The notes under the pieces were generated by a model. The model was not told the DNA's origin, ran no database searches, and saw only the letters and a program-made list of their open reading frames with translations. From NCBI GenBank assembly GCA_945893365.1, contig CAMDED010000047.1, positions 1 through 48,430 on the forward strand: a stretch of 48,430 bases of DNA. The letters run 5' to 3'. Within the stretch, counting starts at the first letter, position 1, and each line of letters opens with the position of its first letter. Below are positions 25,683 through 34,572 of this stretch, piece by piece. The position numbers and the translations under genes were made by a program. Source of the stretch: Candidatus Sulfopaludibacter sp. SbA3. GTDB taxonomy: Bacteria > Acidobacteriota > Terriglobia > Bryobacterales > Bryobacteraceae.

Positions 25683-26138
25683 ATGATTGAGGTTTTCTCC
25701 AAGCGCACGCGCCTTAACGCTTCCGCGGCGGTCGTTTTTGCCTGGCACGCGCATCCGGACGCCTTGCGAAAGCTTGTGCCGCCCTGGGAGCCCGTCGAGG
25801 TGTTGGAGCGCATCGGAGGGATTGCCTTAGGCGCCCGCGTGGTCTTGCGGATCGGCCGCGGGCCGCTCAAGATCTCGTGGGTCGCCCGGCACACTAAATA
25901 CGAGGAAAACCGCATGTTTCAGGACGTGCAGGATAGCGGCCCATTCGCGTTCTGGGAGCACACGCATCGCTTCGAGGCCGACGGCCCGGACGCCTGCTTC
26001 CTCGAGGACACGGTTCGTTACACGCTGCCTCTCGCGCCGCTTAGCCACTGGATTGCGGGCGGTCTGGTTCGCAGAAAGATTCAGCGGATGTTCGATTACC
26101 GCCATGAAGCCACCCGGCGCGAAGTGGAGACTCGCTGA
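25683..26138 (+). CDS. SRPBCC (START-like) family protein
   Basis: 151 residues. MIEVFSKRTRLNASAAVVFAW at the start and FAFWEHTHRFEADG, LEDTVRYTLPLAPL and RKIQRMFDYRHEAT later are characteristic of the COG4276 SRPBCC group, a hydrophobic-cavity fold that binds lipid-like ligands or acts as a cyclase. Its stop overlaps the start of ndh by one base, so it is co-translated with the NADH dehydrogenase. This coupling may mean a role with quinones, in analogy to Coq10-type proteins; that is inference. Confidence 0.85.
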   Translation: MIEVFSKRTRLNASAAVVFAWHAHPDALRKLVPPWEPVEVLERIGGIALGARVVLRIGRGPLKISWVARHTKYEENRMFQDVQDSGPFAFWEHTHRFEADGPDACFLEDTVRYTLPLAPLSHWIAGGLVRRKIQRMFDYRHEATRREVETR

Positions 26139-27406
26139 TGCCGCATCGGGTTGTGATTCTGGGCGGCGGCTTTGGCGGACTGTACGCCGCCAAGGCGCTG
26201 CGGCGCGCGCCCGTCGACGTTACGCTGATCGACCGCCGCAATTTTCACCTCTTCCAGCCGCTGCTTTATCAGGTCGCAACCGGCGGGCTGTCGCCGGGCG
26301 AGATTGCCTCACCTCTCCGCCACGTGTTGGCCCGGCAAAAAAATGCGCGCGTATGGATGGGCGAGGCGGCCGATCTCGACGCGGCCCGGCGAACGCTGAT
26401 CCTGAAAGACGGTGAAGTGGAATACGACTCGCTGATCGTGGCCACGGGATCGCGTCATCACTACTTCGGCAATCCGCAATGGGAGGAGCACGCGCCGGGG
26501 TTGAAGACCATTGAGGACGCGACCGCGATACGCGGGCGTATTCTCGCGGCGTTTGAGCACGCGGAGCGTGAACCCGAGCCCGCGAAGAGGAAAGCATGGC
26601 TCACGTTCGCGATCGTGGGCGGGGGGCCCACCGGTGTGGAGCTCGCGGGCACGCTTGGCGAGATCGCGAACGACACGCTGCGCCACGATTTCCGTTCCAT
26701 CAATCCCGCCGACGCTCAGATTCTGCTCGTCGAGGGCGGTCCTCGCGTATTGGCGTCTTTTCCGGCGGATCTTTCGCGCGCCGCCGAAGAGGCGCTCATC
26801 CGCCTCGGAGTCCGTACGCTGCTCGCGAAAGTAACCGGGGTGGATGCCGAGGGAGTGGATGTCGAAATCCGCGGCAGTCGCTCGCGAATTTCCTCGCGCA
26901 CCGTGTTGTGGGCCGCCGGAGTTGCCGCATCGCCGTTTGGCAAGGTGTTGGCGGAGCGCGCCGGCGCCACGCTCGACCGCGCGGGCCGCGTGGTCCTCGA
27001 CCCCGGCCTTTCCATTCCCGGACATCCTGAAATCTTCGTGATCGGCGATCTCGCGAGCGTCATACAGGACGGGAACCCATTGCCCGGAGTTGCGCCGGTC
27101 GCCATGCAACAGGGCAGCTACGCCGCGCGCGCGATTGAGGAGCGCTTAAGGGGCCGAACTCCTCCGCCGTTCCGCTACTTCAATAAGGGCAATCTCGCGA
27201 CCATCGGACGCGCCGCCGCGGTAGCGGATTTTGGCCGTATCCGTTTTTCCGGTCCCATCGCGTGGCTCGCGTGGCTGTTTATTCACCTGATGTACCTGGT
27301 GGAGTTCGACAACCGGCTGCTCGTGCTCACCGAGTGGGCGTACAACTACGCGACCCGAAACCGGGGAGCGCGCCTCATCACTGGCGGACAATCGGGCGGG
27401 CGGTAA
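26138..27406 (+). CDS. ndh: Type II NADH:quinone oxidoreductase
   Basis: 422 residues. FAD-binding Rossmann motif VVILGGGFGGLYAAKAL (about 5-21), quinone-site region FHLFQPLLYQVATGGLSP, NADH-binding motif FAIVGGGPTGVELAGTL (about 163-179), the FAD-contact FVIGDLASV, and VAMQQGSYAARAI near 323. A C-terminal hydrophobic segment WLAWLFIHLMYLVEF anchors it to the membrane. It passes electrons from NADH to quinone without pumping protons. It follows the SRPBCC gene with a one-base overlap and ends convergently with the next gene. Confidence 0.93.
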   Translation: MPHRVVILGGGFGGLYAAKALRRAPVDVTLIDRRNFHLFQPLLYQVATGGLSPGEIASPLRHVLARQKNARVWMGEAADLDAARRTLILKDGEVEYDSLIVATGSRHHYFGNPQWEEHAPGLKTIEDATAIRGRILAAFEHAEREPEPAKRKAWLTFAIVGGGPTGVELAGTLGEIANDTLRHDFRSINPADAQILLVEGGPRVLASFPADLSRAAEEALIRLGVRTLLAKVTGVDAEGVDVEIRGSRSRISSRTVLWAAGVAASPFGKVLAERAGATLDRAGRVVLDPGLSIPGHPEIFVIGDLASVIQDGNPLPGVAPVAMQQGSYAARAIEERLRGRTPPPFRYFNKGNLATIGRAAAVADFGRIRFSGPIAWLAWLFIHLMYLVEFDNRLLVLTEWAYNYATRNRGARLITGGQSGGR

Positions 27407-27412
27407 ACCGCC
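27399..27412. terminator. Small hairpin between convergent genes
   Basis: A 5-bp stem GGCGG-TAAA-CCGCC spans the 6-base gap between ndh and the convergent gene; the ndh stop codon is in the loop. There is no U-tract on either side, so termination is possible but weakly supported. Confidence 0.25.
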
Positions 27413-28522
27413 TTACAGATTCACTCGCCCATCCCCATCGCCCCGCACAAGCTGTACGCGGTCGAGTTCGATGTCCGGGACAAGCTTGGTCAGCTCCGGC
27501 GAAGTCGTCATCAGGTAGTTCGACGGGCCGCTCAACCAGCCACAATCGGCCATGCTCCGCACCCACGTCCGGTGCGACTGGTTGGTGACGAACACGTCCG
27601 CGCCCAACTCTCCAAGCAGTTTGGTCGCCGCTTCGACCGCCGCGCCTTCATAGCCGGGAATCGTCAGCGCGTCCACCAACGTCCCGACCGTCAGATCGCC
27701 GAACTGCGCGTGTCCCTGCATGGAGGTCCGCAGCAGCACCACCCAGCCGATTTCGCGGCTGCCGTCGAACAGTCCGAAACGCACCGAGCGGCGGTCGTTC
27801 TCCAGATGCAGCCAGTCGAGGTTCCGGCGGTCGCGCACCCCGATCATCGAGTACTCCTCGCGGGCCGCGAGCCAGATTCCGTCCGTCCACTCGGGCCAGA
27901 CGCCCGGGACTGGGACGGCGCGCAAGGCGGCGTGGCGTTTCGACTTTGCCCAATGCAGCGCCCCAATCGCCAGCGCGCCCGTGCCGGTCCCCGCGGCTGC
28001 TTGCGCCGCAAGGCGCTTCCACCATGGCTGCCGCAGCGCCCGGATTTCCCGCAGGAAACGCCCCGCGCGATGCACGCGGAAGAAGAACGGAACCGTATGC
28101 ACCCGCCAGCCGAGGCTTCGCTGGATCTCGGGAAGCGGCTGCTTCGATCCGCCCCCGCCCATGCCCACGCCGATCCCGAGAGGATATTCCCGCTTCACCG
28201 TGCGCAAAATGTACAGCCCGACCGGCATGTATCGCTTGTCGACCACGCCTTCGGAAATCGGCATCTGAAGATTTCCCACCAATCGCGTTTCTCCGGCCAC
28301 CCAGAACGGCTGCGCCTGCATCAGGTAGCCGCCATGCACGCCCGTCTCGTCTACGATGAGGTAACTGTTTTTCGAAACGGTCTCCTGCCGTACCGGCATC
28401 GGTTCCGCGGGCGATTCGCAAAGGAAGTAGCCCGGCGCAACGCCGCCGGCGGCCAGCCTGCGGTTTAGTTCGCGGACCTCGGCCGTGTATTCCTGCGTAT
28501 TGGGGACAGCGCGTAAAGGCAT
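27413..28522 (-). CDS. GNAT-fold-like putative acyltransferase
   Basis: 369 residues, unrecognised as a named family. The first half (about 1-165) reads like a GNAT domain (LIVDETGVHGGYLMQAQPFWV, then GIGVGMGGGGSKQPLPEIQRSLGW, where the Gly-rich loop resembles an acyl-CoA pyrophosphate-binding site). The second half (about 215-345) again has GNAT-like strands (SVRFGLFDGSREIGWVVLLR, LTVGTLVDALTIPG). A basic hydrophobic linker lies near 175. It diverges from the methyltransferase gene across a region with inverted repeats and is near the ACP/FkbH pair, so it may transfer an acyl group, possibly from the ACP. Function not proven. Confidence 0.6.
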   Translation of the reverse strand: MPLRAVPNTQEYTAEVRELNRRLAAGGVAPGYFLCESPAEPMPVRQETVSKNSYLIVDETGVHGGYLMQAQPFWVAGETRLVGNLQMPISEGVVDKRYMPVGLYILRTVKREYPLGIGVGMGGGGSKQPLPEIQRSLGWRVHTVPFFFRVHRAGRFLREIRALRQPWWKRLAAQAAAGTGTGALAIGALHWAKSKRHAALRAVPVPGVWPEWTDGIWLAAREEYSMIGVRDRRNLDWLHLENDRRSVRFGLFDGSREIGWVVLLRTSMQGHAQFGDLTVGTLVDALTIPGYEGAAVEAATKLLGELGADVFVTNQSHRTWVRSMADCGWLSGPSNYLMTTSPELTKLVPDIELDRVQLVRGDGDGRVNL

Positions 28523-28546
28523 GGATTAGGCGCAAATCGGGGCGTA

Positions 28547-28596
28547 TTTCACCCCTTCAGGTATCATATCGCGGTGAAATGAGCTGTTTTCATTTC
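28547..28596. promoter_or_regulatory. Overlapping inverted repeats in a divergent promoter
   Basis: The gap between the GNAT-like gene and the methyltransferase gene contains TTTCACC (28547-28553) paired with GGTGAAA (28573-28579), 19 bases apart, and GAAATGA (28576-28582) paired with TCATTTC (28590-28596), 7 bases apart. The shared central element could be an operator controlling both directions. Confidence 0.4.
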
Positions 28597-28623
28597 CTCG
28601 GGTGGTACCATTAGTTGTCACTC

Positions 28624-29442
28624 ATGGACACCAGGTGGATAAGAGGTTTGGCCGCGGTAAACGGGTTGTCGTTGGCCGTGGCTCTGCGGCGGCCGGCGAA
28701 CCTGCGCCGATTCCTGGCCACGATTTGGCACAGCTACCGGGAGTCCGCGGAAATCGGACTGCCGGGCCGCTTTCCCCTGAGCTTTCTTTTTGAGAGCGGC
28801 CGCGCGAGCTTCGACCCGGGCGACAGGATTGTCTTTCCCCCGATTCTCGAGGGTGGCGGCGGTACCGCCACTCACGAGCTGATGCATTTGGCCGCGATCG
28901 CCCACGTGCTGAAACCGGATTGCATCTTTGAAATCGGAACGTTCACGGGCTTGACCACGGCCCTTTTCATCCTGAACTCCCCTCAGGCGCGCGTGATCAC
29001 TATGGATCTGCCGCCGGACGCCAAGACCGCAAGCGGCGACTACATTTCCACCGACATCGACCTGATCCGGTCGCGGGAAGTGGCGCATTACCTCGGCGTC
29101 CTCGGCTTGACGGGCCGGTATGAGCAGTTGTTCTGCGATTCTTTCCAATTCGATCCGGCTCCCTTTGAAAACTCCGTCGATCTCGCTTTTATCGACGGCG
29201 GCCACCACTATGAATGCGTTGTCAACGACACGGAAAAGACGGCGCGCATGATTCGCGATACGGGACTCGTGCTGTGGCACGATTACGGTGGAGTGGGAGA
29301 TTTCCTGCCGCTTGCGGAATATCTTGAAGCCATCGCCCGGCGGGGGAAGATCTACAAGATCCCGGGCACTACCCTGGCTTGGGCGACGGGAAAAGAGCTC
29401 AAACGGGCACTTGGCAGGGTCAACTCGGCCGCCGGCGCGTAG
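28624..29442 (+). CDS. Class I SAM-dependent methyltransferase
   Basis: 272 residues of the Methyltransf_24-like type. SAM-binding motif I is IFEIGTFTGLTTALF (about 101-115), the acidic end of strand 2 is TMDLPPD, and motif IV VDLAFIDGGHHYE (about 185-197) carries the aspartate D191 used for metal or substrate. A helical N-terminus of about 80 residues precedes the Rossmann domain. Family members methylate sugars or small O-acceptors in natural-product and polysaccharide pathways. It is divergent from the GNAT-like gene and convergent with the ACP gene. The ATG at 28624 was chosen; an in-frame earlier start exists at 28615. Confidence 0.85.
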   Translation: MDTRWIRGLAAVNGLSLAVALRRPANLRRFLATIWHSYRESAEIGLPGRFPLSFLFESGRASFDPGDRIVFPPILEGGGGTATHELMHLAAIAHVLKPDCIFEIGTFTGLTTALFILNSPQARVITMDLPPDAKTASGDYISTDIDLIRSREVAHYLGVLGLTGRYEQLFCDSFQFDPAPFENSVDLAFIDGGHHYECVVNDTEKTARMIRDTGLVLWHDYGGVGDFLPLAEYLEAIARRGKIYKIPGTTLAWATGKELKRALGRVNSAAGA

Positions 29443-29487
29443 AGCCGCTCCGCGCGGGTCGGTCAACCGTCCGCGCCACGTCGCCCC

Positions 29488-29730
29488 TCAGGCGGCGGGA
29501 CCCTCTTCAACCAAATGGCCGGCGAGTTCCTGAAACGAGGTCGCGCTCTCGAATTTCTCCCGATCGACGTCGACCGCGAACTCTTCGCCAATCAGCGTCA
29601 ACAAACGGACATGAGCGAGGGAATCCCACTCGCTTAGATTCTCGACGCGAGCCTCCGGGAAGCGGCCCGGATCGATCTTCGGGAAAGCTAAGGAAAAGCA
29701 CTGCGTAAGTTTTTCTCTGACGTTGTCCAT
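29488..29730 (-). CDS. Acyl carrier protein
   Basis: 80 residues, acidic and helical, with the phosphopantetheine site at S37 in WDSLAHVRL. The typical DSL is followed by helix 3 (FESATSFQELAGHLVEE). It overlaps the 3' end of the FkbH-like gene by 43 bases, so the two are translationally coupled. In characterised systems an FkbH-type enzyme loads a glyceryl group from 1,3-bisphosphoglycerate onto such a stand-alone ACP (FkbJ-like). No holo-ACP synthase is in the window. The upstream in-frame extension to 29763 is disregarded because MDNVREKLTQ is the normal ACP opening. Confidence 0.88.
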   Translation of the reverse strand: MDNVREKLTQCFSLAFPKIDPGRFPEARVENLSEWDSLAHVRLLTLIGEEFAVDVDREKFESATSFQELAGHLVEEGPAA

Positions 29731-31484
29731 TTTTCGATGACCTGGTGAAAGAGCGGAGGGCAAGTCCGCTCAAAATCCGCTGCCGGAAGCTCCAACCCTT
29801 GCCGCGGGCGGCCGGCGGTAACCATGCGGCCGAAGAAGGCTTCGATCGGCCCGTTACGGGGCGTTGTCTCGAAGGCGAATTCGATGTTGCCGGCGCCGAG
29901 CTTTTCATACAGCCGCTTTAGAACCTGAAACTCGATGTGGCGCGAAAACGCGCGGCAACTCATGACCCAGACATCCACTTGGCATTGGACAGCGGGGCCA
30001 CTCTCCTCCGGCATACGTTCCGCCGCCAGGCGTCCCGCCAGCACGGCGATTCTGCCGAGCGGTCCGAAGCGGTCCTCGTAGGAAACGGTGATCGCGAAGG
30101 CCCCCGGCTGACGGAAGTAGGATTCCCATTCCAGTTCGGTAAAGCGGCGGCCGTTCAAGTTGAACTGGTTGGTCTTGTTCACCAACTCGAGGGCCCGTCC
30201 GTCGCCCGCGACGTTCGCGAACTCGAGTGTAAGTCTCGCGTCCAGCCCCGCCAGAAAATCGGCCGGGGCCTCCGATGAATGCGCTTCTTCGAGAGCCGCC
30301 GATGCCCGAAGGCTCGCAAGACGCAGCCGGTCCTCCTCCCGCACTTCGCTCTTGCCGAAGCGGCTCCGCAACCGGTACAGCAGTTCAAGGATTGCCGCCG
30401 GATCGTCCGGAGTGAAGCGGAGGCACTCCACCTGGGGGTGCTTCTCTTTGACCTCGGCCAGTTCCATGGGGCTATCATCCACGAAAACCACGGCGTCGGC
30501 GCCGATATTCCAGGCTTTGAGAATCCGCGCAACGCTAGCCGATTTCGCGCCCCACCCCGCCTCCACCGGAAATACCTGCGACGGCTGGAGCAGGATATCG
30601 GGCCGCGCGAAAGCTTCGCGGACTAGCGCGGGATCGTTCTTCGACGCGACGGCGACCAATACGCCCGAGCCGGCGAGCGATGCGAGCAATTGCTGATAGA
30701 GCGCATGCGCTTGCGACTTGCCCTCGAGCGACCACGTGACCCCTTCGCTGCCCGCGTCTCCCAGGATGCCCTTCCACAGCGTGTCATCCAGGTCGGTAAT
30801 GATTCCTTTCGCGGACTCGGCGGGAAACAGACACGGCACGCACAGCGCGGCCGCGGCGTCGGCGTGTGGAAGCGTGTACGGAAACCCCGCCGACAGGTCA
30901 AGCTTGGGATTCGCGCGCGCCGGCGGCGGCGAACTCGCGGCCAAAGCGTGATCGCTTACGATCCGTACGCCACTGAGGCCGCACACCCGGCTAACGAATG
31001 TGGCCAGAGTGGCTCGTAACTGGAGCTCGAAGGGGCTGCACTGCCCCGGCGGCAGATTTACCAGCGGCGGCAGCGCTAGAGCAGGCGCAATCAAGGCGAC
31101 GGGAGTCGCGCGGCCGGGCGCTGCCAACAGCGCTTCCAGGCGTTTGGTTTTCTCTTCGACTTGCGCGAGAATGTCGTCCAGGGTCCGCGCGGCCCAGCCG
31201 GCCGACGCACGCAGTCCGAGCCGCGCGTCGAGATCGCTCCATTCGATGGCGAGGACGATGCCGTCGGATCCGGTCTCGCACGCTCGCCGGAGATTGCCCT
31301 CCAGATCGTTGAACAGGCCGGTGTGTACGCAAATCTCATCGCCCGGGAAATGAAGGTTGAGATGTGCCTGAAGGTAGGTTTCGAAATGCAGCGGGGTGAA
31401 GCCGCAGACAAGGTGGATGTCCCGTTTCCGGCTCCCCTCGAGCGCCGGCTGCGCATTGATCCGCAGTGCTTCGCCGTAGCGCAT
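29688..31484 (-). CDS. FkbH-like HAD-IIIC protein (glyceryl-ACP synthase type)
   Basis: 598 residues. N-terminal SGNH-like/variable domain (about 20-210), HAD-IIIC domain from about 225 with the nucleophile D231 and D233 in TDLDDTLWKGILGD, motif II VASKND, the acidic motif FVDDSPMELAEV near 330, and a C-terminal GNAT-like domain (about 410-560; ELVNKTNQFNLNGRRF, WVMSCRAFSRHIEF). These are hallmarks of FkbH proteins that make glyceryl-ACP. The overlapping ACP gene supports this. The start MRYGEALRIN is about 114 bases from the divergent hydrolase gene. Product could be a glyceric-acid decoration of a polysaccharide or a small metabolite; no polyketide synthase is seen. Confidence 0.9.
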   Translation of the reverse strand: MRYGEALRINAQPALEGSRKRDIHLVCGFTPLHFETYLQAHLNLHFPGDEICVHTGLFNDLEGNLRRACETGSDGIVLAIEWSDLDARLGLRASAGWAARTLDDILAQVEEKTKRLEALLAAPGRATPVALIAPALALPPLVNLPPGQCSPFELQLRATLATFVSRVCGLSGVRIVSDHALAASSPPPARANPKLDLSAGFPYTLPHADAAAALCVPCLFPAESAKGIITDLDDTLWKGILGDAGSEGVTWSLEGKSQAHALYQQLLASLAGSGVLVAVASKNDPALVREAFARPDILLQPSQVFPVEAGWGAKSASVARILKAWNIGADAVVFVDDSPMELAEVKEKHPQVECLRFTPDDPAAILELLYRLRSRFGKSEVREEDRLRLASLRASAALEEAHSSEAPADFLAGLDARLTLEFANVAGDGRALELVNKTNQFNLNGRRFTELEWESYFRQPGAFAITVSYEDRFGPLGRIAVLAGRLAAERMPEESGPAVQCQVDVWVMSCRAFSRHIEFQVLKRLYEKLGAGNIEFAFETTPRNGPIEAFFGRMVTAGRPRQGLELPAADFERTCPPLFHQVIEKWTTSEKNLRSAFP

Positions 31485-31598
31485 CCAACATCCAAGGTAT
31501 CACGGCCAGGGTATTTCGGCGGGTCGGGATCGGCGTCCGGGCAAGGTCCGGGAGTACTCCACGTCGCAGGGCCGGATCCCGCGTGGTTTAATATTTCC

Positions 31599-32543
31599 AT
31601 GCGCAACCGCGGCGCCACCACTCGACGCCAACTGCTGGCAAGCTTCGCCATGGCGCAACCCCCGCCCCGGCGGTCTGTCTCCGGTTCGGTCCTCGTGCAT
31701 GAGCACATCATGGTTGATTTCATCGGAGCCGGAGATATCAAGCCCGGCCGGTATGATGCCGGCGAGGTCTTCCGCGCGGCGAAGCCGAAGCTCGACGAAT
31801 TGAAGTCGCACGGCTGCCGCCGCATGCTCGAGTGTACGCCAAACTTTCTCGGCCGGGACCCGCGGCTTCTGGGGCGCCTCTCGGACGCGGCCGGTATCGA
31901 GATCTGGACGAACACCGGACTATACGGAGCGGCCAATCACAAGTACCTGCCCGCGTTCGCGCGGCAGGAGTCCAGCGATCAGCTCGCGAGGCGTTGGATC
32001 GACGAGGCTCGGCTCGGTATCGACGGCGTCAAGCCGCGCTTCGTCAAAATCGGCGTCAACCGCGGCCCGCTTCACGAATGGGATCGAAAGCTCGCCCACG
32101 CCGCCGCCGTCACGGCGCGTGAAACGGGGCTCACGGTGTCGTCCCACACGGGCGATGGGGCCGCGGCACTGGAGCAGATCGAGATCTTCGTGAATGCGAA
32201 GGCCCCGCCCGCGCAATTCGTCTGGGTCCACGCGCAAAACGAGAAAGACCACAGCTTCCACCGCCGGGCCGCGCGGGCGGGAGCCTGGGTTGAGTTTGAC
32301 GGCATCGGACCGCGGTCGGCAGTTTGGCACCGTGAGTGCGTTCAGTTCATGGCCGCGGAGAAACTGCTGGAACGTACGCTGATCTCGCAGGATTCCGGTT
32401 GGTATCACGTGGGCGAAGCCGGCGGGGGCGACTATCGCGGATACCAGTTCATCTACACGGATTTCCTTCCCGGACTTCAGAACGATGGCTGGGTGCGGAC
32501 GCTGATGGTAGACAACCCGGTCAAAGCATTCGGCGATCTGTAA
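31599..32543 (+). CDS. Phosphotriesterase-family metallohydrolase
   Basis: 314 residues. The N-terminus MRNRGATTRRQLLASFAMAQ resembles a short Tat-like export signal. The binuclear metal ligands of the phosphotriesterase family are all present in order: H34 and H36 (VHEHIMVDF), K150 (VKIGVN, the carboxylated lysine), H183 (SSHTGDG), H211 (VWVHAQNE) and D265 (ISQDSGWYH). Members hydrolyse lactones or phosphotriesters; the natural substrate of this one is unknown. It is followed within 37 bases by a secreted alpha/beta hydrolase and may share a transcript with it. The ATG at 31650 is an alternative start if the export signal is not used. Confidence 0.88.
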   Translation: MRNRGATTRRQLLASFAMAQPPPRRSVSGSVLVHEHIMVDFIGAGDIKPGRYDAGEVFRAAKPKLDELKSHGCRRMLECTPNFLGRDPRLLGRLSDAAGIEIWTNTGLYGAANHKYLPAFARQESSDQLARRWIDEARLGIDGVKPRFVKIGVNRGPLHEWDRKLAHAAAVTARETGLTVSSHTGDGAAALEQIEIFVNAKAPPAQFVWVHAQNEKDHSFHRRAARAGAWVEFDGIGPRSAVWHRECVQFMAAEKLLERTLISQDSGWYHVGEAGGGDYRGYQFIYTDFLPGLQNDGWVRTLMVDNPVKAFGDL

Positions 32544-32580
32544 GCGCGCTCCCCCGGCGGGTACGTCTCGTGATCTAATA

Positions 32581-34572
32581 ATGTCCATGCGTAATTGCCT
32601 TCTGCCCGCCCTACTCGCGCTTGCGGCAAACCTGCCGGGCGCCGTGGTCCGAATCGAAGTCGAAAGCCGTACCGACGTTCTTGGCGACAAGTCCTGGGGC
32701 GCGGCCGGACCTTATGAGCGTATCGTCGGCAAGGTATACTTTGCGGTTGATCCGAACAATGAGGCCAACCGGATTATCGCCGACATCGACAAAGCGCCGC
32801 GCAACGAAAAAGGGCTCGTCGAATTTTCCTCCGACCTCTACTTCCTGAAGCCTCGCGATCCCAAGCGCGGCAACGGCGCGGTGCTCTATGAGGTCTCGAA
32901 CCGGGGCAACAAAGGCATGCTCGCCATGTACAACCGGGCGCCGGGCTCGCTCGATCCCCAAAAGGAAGCCGACTTTGGCGACGGGTTCCTGCTCAATCAA
33001 GGCTACGCGCTTCTGTGGCTCGGGTGGCAGTGGGACCCGCCACTGAATCCCGGCCGCATGCGCCTCTATCCACCGGTGGTGAAAGGCGTGACGGGGCCGG
33101 TGCGCGCCGAATTCGTTCCGGACGCGCGGGAGACGTCGCACTCGCTCGCCGATCGCGATCACCAAGCCTATCCCGCGGTGAACCCGGACGACCCGAAACT
33201 CACTCTCACGGTGCGCGACCGCAATGACGGACCGCGCCGCGCGATCCCGCGCAACGAATGGAAGATCGAGGACCGCACTCGGGTCACGATGGCTTCGGGT
33301 TTCCTGCCGGGCAAGGTTTACGAACTGGTCTATACTTCGCAGGATCCCGCGCTCGTGGGCCTCGGCCCAACCGCGATCCGCGACATGGTTTCGTTTCTGA
33401 AGCACGGAATCGGCAGCGGCGTCATCCCGCTGGGCGACCAGACGAATTTCATAAAACGGGCTCATGGCTTCGGGGTCTCGCAGAGCGGACGCTTCCTCCG
33501 CACCTTCCTCTATTACGGGTTCAACCAGGACGAACAGAAACGGAAAGTCTTCGACGGTGTCCTGGCGCACGTGGCCGGCGGCGGGCGCGGCAGCTTCAAC
33601 CATCGCTTCGCGCAAGCCTCGCGCGACGGCCATCCGTTCCTGAATATGTTCTATCCCACCGATATTTTTCCGTATACCGACATCGAACAGACCGACCCCG
33701 AGACAGGCATTACGGACGGCCTGCTCACGCGCGTGCGGAAGGCCGGAGTCGCGCCGAAGGTTTTCTATACTAATTCCTCCTACGAATACTACGGCCGCGC
33801 CGCGTCGCTGATCCACACGACGATCGACGGTAAGAAGGATGCGCCGCTGCCGGCGGACACTCGCGCTTATCTGTTCGCCGGCGGCCAGCACGGGCCGGGG
33901 GCGTTTCCACCGGTAAAGAATCGCGCCCAACAGAACTCCCCGAATCCGAACCCGTATACCTGGTCCATGCGCGCGCTTCTCGTCGCCATGGATAAGTGGG
34001 TCACGGAAGGCAAGGAGCCTCCGCCTTCGCAGTATCCGAAGGTGTCCGAGGATAAACTTGTGTCGCTCGGCGCGGTGCAGTTCCCCAAGCTTCCGGGCGT
34101 CGCGTTCCCCACGCGCATCCAAAAAGGCTATCGCGCGGATTACGGACCGGAGTTCCGCACAAAGGGAATCGTGACGCAGGAGCCGCCCGGGATTGGAAGC
34201 GCGTTCCCGACGCTCGTGCCGCAGGTCGACCGGGACGGCAACGAAACCTCCGGCATCCGGATGCCTGAAATCCAGGCACCGCTGGCTACCTACACGGGTT
34301 GGAATCTGCGCTCAGCCGATCTTGGCGCTTCAGACGAATTGTTCAGCATGGTGGGGTCCTTCCTTCCGTTCGCGAAGACGAAATCGGAACGCGAGAAGAA
34401 TGGAGACCCACGGGCGTCCATTGAGGAGCGCTACAAGAGCCGTTCGGGCTACATCGCGAAAGTCGAGTCCGCCGCCCGTGAGCTTGCGAAGGATGGCTAT
34501 CTGCTGGAACAGGATGTACCGAAATTGGTGGAGCGCGCCGGGGCGGAGTGGGACTACGCGACCGCCCGGTAA
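32581..34572 (+). CDS. Secreted alpha/beta-hydrolase domain protein
   Basis: 663 residues with a signal peptide ending near NLPGA (about residue 20). It belongs to the large Abhydrolase_10-type group common in Acidobacteria: RTDVLGDKSWGAAGPYERIV near 31, YEVSNRGNKGML near 103, the nucleophile elbow GFGVSQSGRFLRTFLYYGFN with serines S300 and S302, YFYTNSSYEYYGRAASLIHT, and FAGGQHGPGAFPP near 439 for the catalytic histidine region. Probably an extracellular esterase. It follows the phosphotriesterase gene at a 37-base distance on the same strand. Confidence 0.88.
   Translation: MSMRNCLLPALLALAANLPGAVVRIEVESRTDVLGDKSWGAAGPYERIVGKVYFAVDPNNEANRIIADIDKAPRNEKGLVEFSSDLYFLKPRDPKRGNGAVLYEVSNRGNKGMLAMYNRAPGSLDPQKEADFGDGFLLNQGYALLWLGWQWDPPLNPGRMRLYPPVVKGVTGPVRAEFVPDARETSHSLADRDHQAYPAVNPDDPKLTLTVRDRNDGPRRAIPRNEWKIEDRTRVTMASGFLPGKVYELVYTSQDPALVGLGPTAIRDMVSFLKHGIGSGVIPLGDQTNFIKRAHGFGVSQSGRFLRTFLYYGFNQDEQKRKVFDGVLAHVAGGGRGSFNHRFAQASRDGHPFLNMFYPTDIFPYTDIEQTDPETGITDGLLTRVRKAGVAPKVFYTNSSYEYYGRAASLIHTTIDGKKDAPLPADTRAYLFAGGQHGPGAFPPVKNRAQQNSPNPNPYTWSMRALLVAMDKWVTEGKEPPPSQYPKVSEDKLVSLGAVQFPKLPGVAFPTRIQKGYRADYGPEFRTKGIVTQEPPGIGSAFPTLVPQVDRDGNETSGIRMPEIQAPLATYTGWNLRSADLGASDELFSMVGSFLPFAKTKSEREKNGDPRASIEERYKSRSGYIAKVESAARELAKDGYLLEQDVPKLVERAGAEWDYATAR

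Follow-up and report, generated by a model that had tools for sequence, protein, structure and literature searches.

The window analysed here, a stretch of 48,430 nucleotides, is contig C47 (CAMDED010000047.1) of the 7.88-Mb, 299-contig genome of Candidatus Sulfopaludibacter sp. SbA3. It carries on its minus strand an FkbH-domain protein of the HAD-IIIC type, a stand-alone acyl carrier protein (ACP), and a 369-aa acyltransferase-like protein that resembles N-myristoyltransferase (NMT) in its predicted fold. Our preferred interpretation, which we hold with moderate confidence, is that the FkbH protein loads glyceryl onto the ACP and that the NMT-like enzyme transfers this unit to an amine, for which a surface-glycan amino sugar is the likeliest candidate. 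Judging from its family, the FkbH protein would take the glyceryl unit from 1,3-bisphosphoglycerate, dephosphorylate it, and leave it on the phosphopantetheine arm of the ACP. The NMT-like enzyme would then move the acyl group from the ACP to the amine, and its C-terminal tail with Asp362 may act as general base in the manner of the NMT C-terminal carboxylate. The neighbors of related genes suggest that the acceptor would most likely be a sugar amino group for a surface polysaccharide, pilus or flagellar glycan, and a NodB-like protein, encoded beside PIG-L on another contig of the same genome, would probably free or prepare the amine.

The FkbH protein (598 aa, ATG start; positions 29688-31484, minus strand) scored 206.4 bits against TIGR01686 (cut-off 146.65), placing it in the FkbH domain family, and 48.2 bits against the HAD-IIIC model TIGR01681 (cut-off 35.75). 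Six residues, D231, D233, T235, D336, D337, and C510, corresponding to the DxDxT and DD motifs and the Cys of the SCR motif, were invariant in the 18 aligned FkbH sequences, and we take Cys510 (codon at 29955-29957) to be a possible acyl-binding cysteine. The N-terminal part gave no match to PF21211 (FkbH_N) at E-values up to 10, while the FkbH protein of locus L094 scored 45 bits; the sole relative found by sequence search of the PDB was 3slr. The ACP (80 aa, ATG start; 29488-29730, minus strand) scored 19.3 bits against PF00550, narrowly under the cut-off of 20.8, carries a WDSL motif with Ser37 (codon at 29620-29622) as the predicted phosphopantetheine site, and clustered with 23 other ACP-like genes, nearly all from the FkbH loci of relatives. 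An initial annotation of this DNA had described the two genes as overlapping by 43 bases and forming a co-expressed glyceryl-ACP module. The coordinates of the overlap (29688-29730, minus strand) confirm it exactly, and the FkbH family score, the motifs, and the overlap support the pair as a predicted module. Such an overlap is not unusual: counting the window, the relatives' set has 22 adjacent FkbH-ACP pairs, and 18 of them overlapped by 1-43 bases, mostly 4, 8 or 25, with that of the window being the largest. A second set gave 10 of 18, and both counts rest on gene starts from our own gene finder. A second FkbH-ACP pair was found in the same genome (L069, G000:C65:9500-29000). A VOC gene and a hexapeptide transferase come after this pair, and the operon before it has members that cluster with those of a PilO-bearing operon at L088.

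The 369-aa protein (27413-28522, minus strand) is in no curated family. No Pfam or NCBIfam model matched it, and its 60 homologues produced one stray match in each database, with no NMT model among them and no Pfam GNAT model at E-values up to 0.01. A PDB sequence search with the 60-sequence profile returned only chance-level matches (E 0.49 and 0.5). Its AlphaFold2 model was of high quality, with a mean predicted local distance difference test score (pLDDT) of 92.4 and a predicted template modelling score (pTM) of 0.90. When this model was compared with known structures using Foldseek, the top ranks were occupied by N-myristoyltransferases and Eis-like acetyltransferases (1iyl, E 6.7e-12, TM-score 0.53, root-mean-square deviation (rmsd) 6.9; 2hv2, E 4.7e-11). 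In VIA-align the 50 matches listed were all NMTs, including 4cax with a Z-score of 20.0 and an rmsd of 4.7 over 302 aligned residues. The predicted fold is thus a tandem GNAT fold closest to NMT, at about 9% identity in the structural alignments. As no NMT family model matches, we call the protein NMT-like and reject its placement among the NMTs proper; in the absence of a Pfam GNAT match, assignment to a Pfam GNAT family was rejected as well.

The C-terminal tail of the protein (RGDGDGRVNL, 27416-27445, minus strand) contains Asp362 and Asp364 and represents a candidate catalytic base region. According to the available part of PMC7048800, the catalytic base of human NMT1 is the C-terminal carboxylate of Gln496, with Phe247 and Leu248 forming the oxyanion hole. 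In several VIA-align rows, the alignment ended with model residue 364 opposite residue 496 of the NMT chain. The tail consensus of the family is RGDGDG(P/R)(I/V)(H/N)L. In alignment A2, which consists of the window protein and the 59 sufficiently long proteins from the 70 scan loci described below, 56 of the 60 sequences had Leu as their last residue, 55 of these stopping precisely with the motif, and Asp362 was present in 60 and Asp364 in 58, although the conservation in this set is biased because the sequences were found with a pattern containing RGD[GA][DA]G. A set of 13 sequences collected by similarity alone had Asp362 and the terminal Leu throughout, RGD in 12, and Asp364 in 11. Moreover, a second tandem-GNAT family, c5, aligned with the 369-aa family over 329 columns (hhalign 94.1%, E 1.3e-7), with the invariant Asp332 of c5 lying opposite Asp364. 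Our candidates for the catalytic base, by analogy with NMT, are Asp362, Asp364, and the terminal carboxylate. The window protein also has two extra glycines (Gly122-Gly123) that occur in none of the other 59 sequences of A2.

The genome scan, using a pattern seeded on the RGD tail, found 70 loci, 68 of which were kept after L158 (no GNAT call) and L164 (an 86-aa fragment) had been dropped. The loci were named as Acidobacteriota, Planctomycetota, Zixibacteria, Neomarinimicrobiota, Hydrogenedentota, Chloroflexi, Verrucomicrobiota, Myxococcales, and others, and also as several Proteobacteria, including Pelagibacteraceae; Geothrix paludis and Lysobacter antarcticus are among the hosts. In a separate draw of 396 genomes of the phylum, 56 matched the profile built from the 13 sequences, only 10 of them near full length and the rest partial and weak. 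Within four genes of the GNAT gene at the 68 loci, FkbH was found at 25, an AMP-ligase at 21, and both at 2. FkbH and AMP-ligase thus look like alternative loaders that are exchanged between GNAT loci. An ACP was detected by profile at 36 loci and by profile or related clusters at 45, a loader or ACP at 52, and a deacetylase-like gene at 45 (PDA12 at 31, PDA10 at 14); only six loci had no loader, ACP or deacetylase-like gene. Further neighbors were SDR, LuxE, Bac_transf (near 6 loci), and a DegT-like cluster (near 7 loci), with DegT assigned by eye and PIG-L, Bac_transf, SDR, and LuxE by Pfam on single representatives. In the two Pelagibacteraceae (SAR11-type) loci L146 and L154, FkbH, the NodB-like PDA12, and the NMT-fold gene were found together.

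These neighborhoods bear on the identity of the donor. The glyceryl-ACP could be real while the NMT-like enzyme uses another ACP or an acyl-CoA, and the proximity of FkbH would then be a relic of exchanged cassettes. The separate transcription unit of the GNAT gene, 965 bases away, speaks for such a donor, as do the 19 of 68 homologous loci with an AMP-ligase and no FkbH and the at least six further PF00550 matches in the genome itself. However, an ACP was present at 24 of the 25 FkbH-bearing GNAT loci, frequently as an immediate neighbor in the same orientation, and the FkbH-ACP-GNAT arrangement recurs in L086, L094, L099, and L124, so we regard a different donor as unlikely, if by no means negligible.

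The link between FkbH and the tandem-GNAT gene was also assessed in 150 genomes of the host's family, 102 of which had FkbH relatives at E-values up to 1e-3. The close FkbH group (E <1e-119) comprised 31 places in 30 genomes, including the second copy on C65 of the same genome. Within three genes of these 31 places, an ACP was found at 23, a VOC gene at 11, a hexapeptide transferase at 5, and a tandem-GNAT gene at 11 (window included; three of the 369-aa type and eight of the c5 type). In the FkbH tree, for which 58 of 60 proteins had the required length of 500 aa or more and were free of X, the window protein paired with that of L057 with a support of 1.0, in a clade of mostly same-family sequences with some other Acidobacteria and one Planctomycete, and the GNAT-linked FkbH proteins were scattered over several clades. 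Five of the 18 GNAT places in the family were within 5 kb of a listed FkbH, compared to none of 50 places of AsnB, an unrelated glycan gene used as the control (Fisher p 8e-4); within 10 kb, one of the 50 AsnB places was near a listed FkbH. This test used the best 50 AsnB matches (E <=1.2e-203). The FkbH places came from the first 150 matches of a longer list; the top 121 entered the test itself, and the remaining 29, inspected by eye, had no contig in common with a GNAT match or with the 50 AsnB matches. GNAT was present in 17 of the 150 genomes and PDA12 in 11 at E <1e-70 (13 at 1e-3), and the two co-occurred in 8 (p 6e-7); the p values of these family tests ignore the kinship of the genomes. 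The initial annotation had suggested that the GNAT-like protein could transfer the unit, and the presence of FkbH at 25 of the 68 loci together with the 5 of 18 versus 0 of 50 result supports this role as likely.

As for the acceptor, the glycan-type neighbors in relatives included glycosyltransferases, deacetylases, Bac_transf, and a DegT-like aminotransferase. PDA12 is a NodB-fold family (L098:9055-9981 and 29 homologues, alignment A3, mean column identity 57%), whose model (pLDDT 95.6) was closest to the polysaccharide deacetylase 3rxz and to ArnD 8t0j. Three members scanned gave no Pfam match, and the PDA12 profile matched PDB sequences only at chance level, the best being a chitin deacetylase (E 0.69). 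The genome of the window has a single PDA12, on C43, beside a PIG-L de-N-acetylase and an LPG_synthase_TM gene. An FkbH relative is also carried by the 55-kb plasmid pPfer1 of Paludibaculum fermentans (L217, NZ_CP063850.1), where its neighbors are a divergent GNAT gene, an MBOAT gene, and genes for glycosyltransferases, an O-antigen ligase, and a deacetylase; plasmids searched with the 369-aa protein gave no match. The surface-glycan target put forward in the initial annotation fits these neighbors in relatives, whereas the window itself has no such genes. Alternatively, the acyl group might go to a small molecule, a lipid, or a protein, for instance a pilin. The acyl acceptors of NMT are proteins and those of Eis-like enzymes are aminoglycosides and peptides, as described in the accessible portions of PMC7048800 and PMC4964394, and both the ACP-GNAT pair of L088 and the second FkbH-ACP pair of L069 come after an operon with a PilO gene. 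Yet sugars are the acceptors suggested by the deacetylase-like genes at 45 of the 68 loci and by the glycosyltransferase, Bac_transf, and DegT-like genes, and we rate a non-glycan acceptor as unlikely.

Several observations count against glyceryl transfer to a glycan by the products of this locus. In the window, the GNAT-like gene lies 965 bases from the ACP, with a gene on the opposite strand in between, and has neither a glycosyltransferase nor a deacetylase nearby. The 369-aa type of GNAT was found at only 3 of the 31 close FkbH loci, c5 and a VOC gene stand in its place at L057, whose FkbH is the nearest relative (54-55% identical), and the two other genomes of the genus that were searched have FkbH with no GNAT match. 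Neither FkbH nor AMP-ligase was within four genes at 24 of the 68 GNAT loci, some of which are on short contigs. For the tail, Asp364 is not strictly conserved (Ala in 2 of 60 and in 2 of 13 sequences) and the final five residues of the model had pLDDT values below 50; the selection bias in A2 and the assignment of several neighbor genes by eye or from single representatives belong here as well. A wider proposal, which we advance tentatively as possible, is that a widespread NMT-fold family moves exchangeable short acyl groups, glyceryl from FkbH or other acids from AMP-ligases, from dedicated carriers to amino sugars exposed by NodB-like partners, with the acidic tail as base, and thereby diversifies surface glycans across phyla.

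The S-adenosylmethionine-dependent methyltransferase of the window (28615-29442, plus strand; METHYLTRANSFERASE) scored 56.8 bits against PF13578. It sits between the ACP and the GNAT-like gene, convergent with the former and divergent from the latter. Because it is on the plus strand and the other three genes are on the minus strand, the four genes are not one operon, and a single four-gene operon was ruled out accordingly. A promoter scan found no sigma-70-like site (0.9 in shuffles), and a terminator scan found five candidates against 4.2 in shuffles, which is chance level. The 150 family genomes contained eight matches to the methyltransferase, itself included, and the three best others were 31-37% identical. 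None of the seven others was within 10 kb of a listed FkbH (one, in G065, shared a contig with FkbH at a distance of about 18 kb). In the surroundings of the three best, profiles detected AsnB or glycosyltransferases, which are genes of the glycan type, and no FkbH. When the called proteins of the window and of 110 fetched loci were searched with its single-sequence profile, the methyltransferase was the only hit.

The initial annotation had suggested that the methyltransferase could methylate the unit, and the product could then be a methylated glycerate, as in Campylobacter flagellin glycan. The gene adjoins the others, and a di-O-methylglyceric acid on pseudaminic acid, from a locus with an fkbH-domain gene, is described in the available parts of PMC3068675 and PMC7099621. 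Still, the methyltransferase is on the opposite strand and beside no other FkbH or GNAT locus examined, which makes its participation improbable; since it stands beside no other FkbH and is in the opposite orientation, it is most likely a bystander. Gene order across relatives, proposed earlier as a check, agreed in part: the methyltransferase is not conserved beside FkbH, but the GNAT-like gene recurs near it. Of the minimal glyceryl-decorating cassette, three genes (FkbH, ACP, and the GNAT-like gene) are therefore kept and the methyltransferase is dropped.

FkbH and ACP could also feed a polyketide or tetronate pathway, giving methoxymalonyl-ACP or a tetronate. These are described roles of FkbH with an ACP: in the accessible text of PMC7489565, glyceryl-ACP is made by Mad7/Mad8 and Mad14/Mad12 of tetromadurin. 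In agreement with the initial annotation, Pfam found no polyketide synthase or AMP-ligase domain in the eight proteins of 25683-34572, the scan being confined to these neighbors. They include no dehydrogenases of an FK520-type methoxymalonyl-ACP cassette, for which the methyltransferase is moreover on the other strand, and no FabH-like synthase of a tetronate glycerate-utilisation operon; in addition, the annotated loci of relatives are of the glycan type. A polyketide role was rejected for want of such neighbors among the eight and is very improbable.

Two further genes in the vicinity of FkbH were observed. A VOC gene was located beside FkbH and ACP in L057, L062, L071, L103, L131, and L145 (PF13669 in the two scanned). 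By analogy with methylmalonyl-CoA epimerase, a PF13669-type VOC gene in this position may encode a glyceryl-ACP epimerase, which is speculation on our part. Campylobacter cj1301 is annotated as an epimerase in the available part of PMC7099621. In the window, a phosphotriesterase-family gene (PF02126, about 31600-32543) is divergent from FkbH; its reading frame, called from 31161 and overlapping FkbH, is probably over-extended, as the PF02126 match begins at residue 174.

Most descriptions of FkbH proteins come from polyketide pathways, but surface-glycan clusters contain close relatives of the window protein. Among the literature matches listed for FkbH or glyceryl-ACP, only PMC7099621 concerned a surface glycan, as far as its title and the start of its abstract tell. 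The search, which left most subscription papers outside, found no paper combining glyceric acid, polysaccharide, acyl carrier protein, and acyltransferase, and no description of the 369-aa family among the titles listed. As far as this search goes, it supports, but does not prove, the novelty of the NMT-fold family, its carrier-protein link, and the exchange of loaders. If our interpretation is true, the NMT-fold family would supply the transferase so far missing for attaching glyceryl and other short acyl units from carriers to sugars of the cell surface. It would then offer a gene signature by which uncommon acylations of glycans could be predicted and, as a bacterial relative, could help to trace the origin of the NMT fold and of C-terminal catalysis.

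OzmB is an FkbH-type glyceryl-ACP module protein of polyketide pathways. Like the FkbH/OzmB modules, the window has an FkbH domain with HAD motifs, the SCR cysteine, and a stand-alone ACP; unlike them, it has no polyketide synthase, pathway dehydrogenases, or FabH-like synthase among the neighbors scanned, and the partner is an NMT-fold transferase. The flagellin glycan locus of Campylobacter jejuni, likened here by description only, shares an fkbH-domain gene and a glyceric-acid type group on a sugar according to the accessible parts of PMC3068675 and PMC7099621, but methylation belongs to its product and is doubtful in the window. Flagellin glycosylation islands of Aeromonas and Enterobacteriaceae contain ACP, SDR, AMP-ligase, or LuxE genes, as the available sections of PMC7874193 and PMC4875605 describe, and the same kinds of genes adjoin GNAT homologues in several of our loci; the window has FkbH in place of the ligase, and those sections mention no NMT-fold gene for the islands. 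The tandem-GNAT fold is held in common with the Eis-type acetyltransferases (2hv2, 3n7z), which differ in having an extra sterol-carrier-like domain and in acetylating from CoA, as given in the accessible text of PMC4964394. The likeness to eukaryotic N-myristoyltransferase covers the tandem-GNAT fold over nearly the whole chain and a functional-looking C-terminus, whereas that enzyme uses myristoyl-CoA and the predicted donor of the window protein is an ACP.

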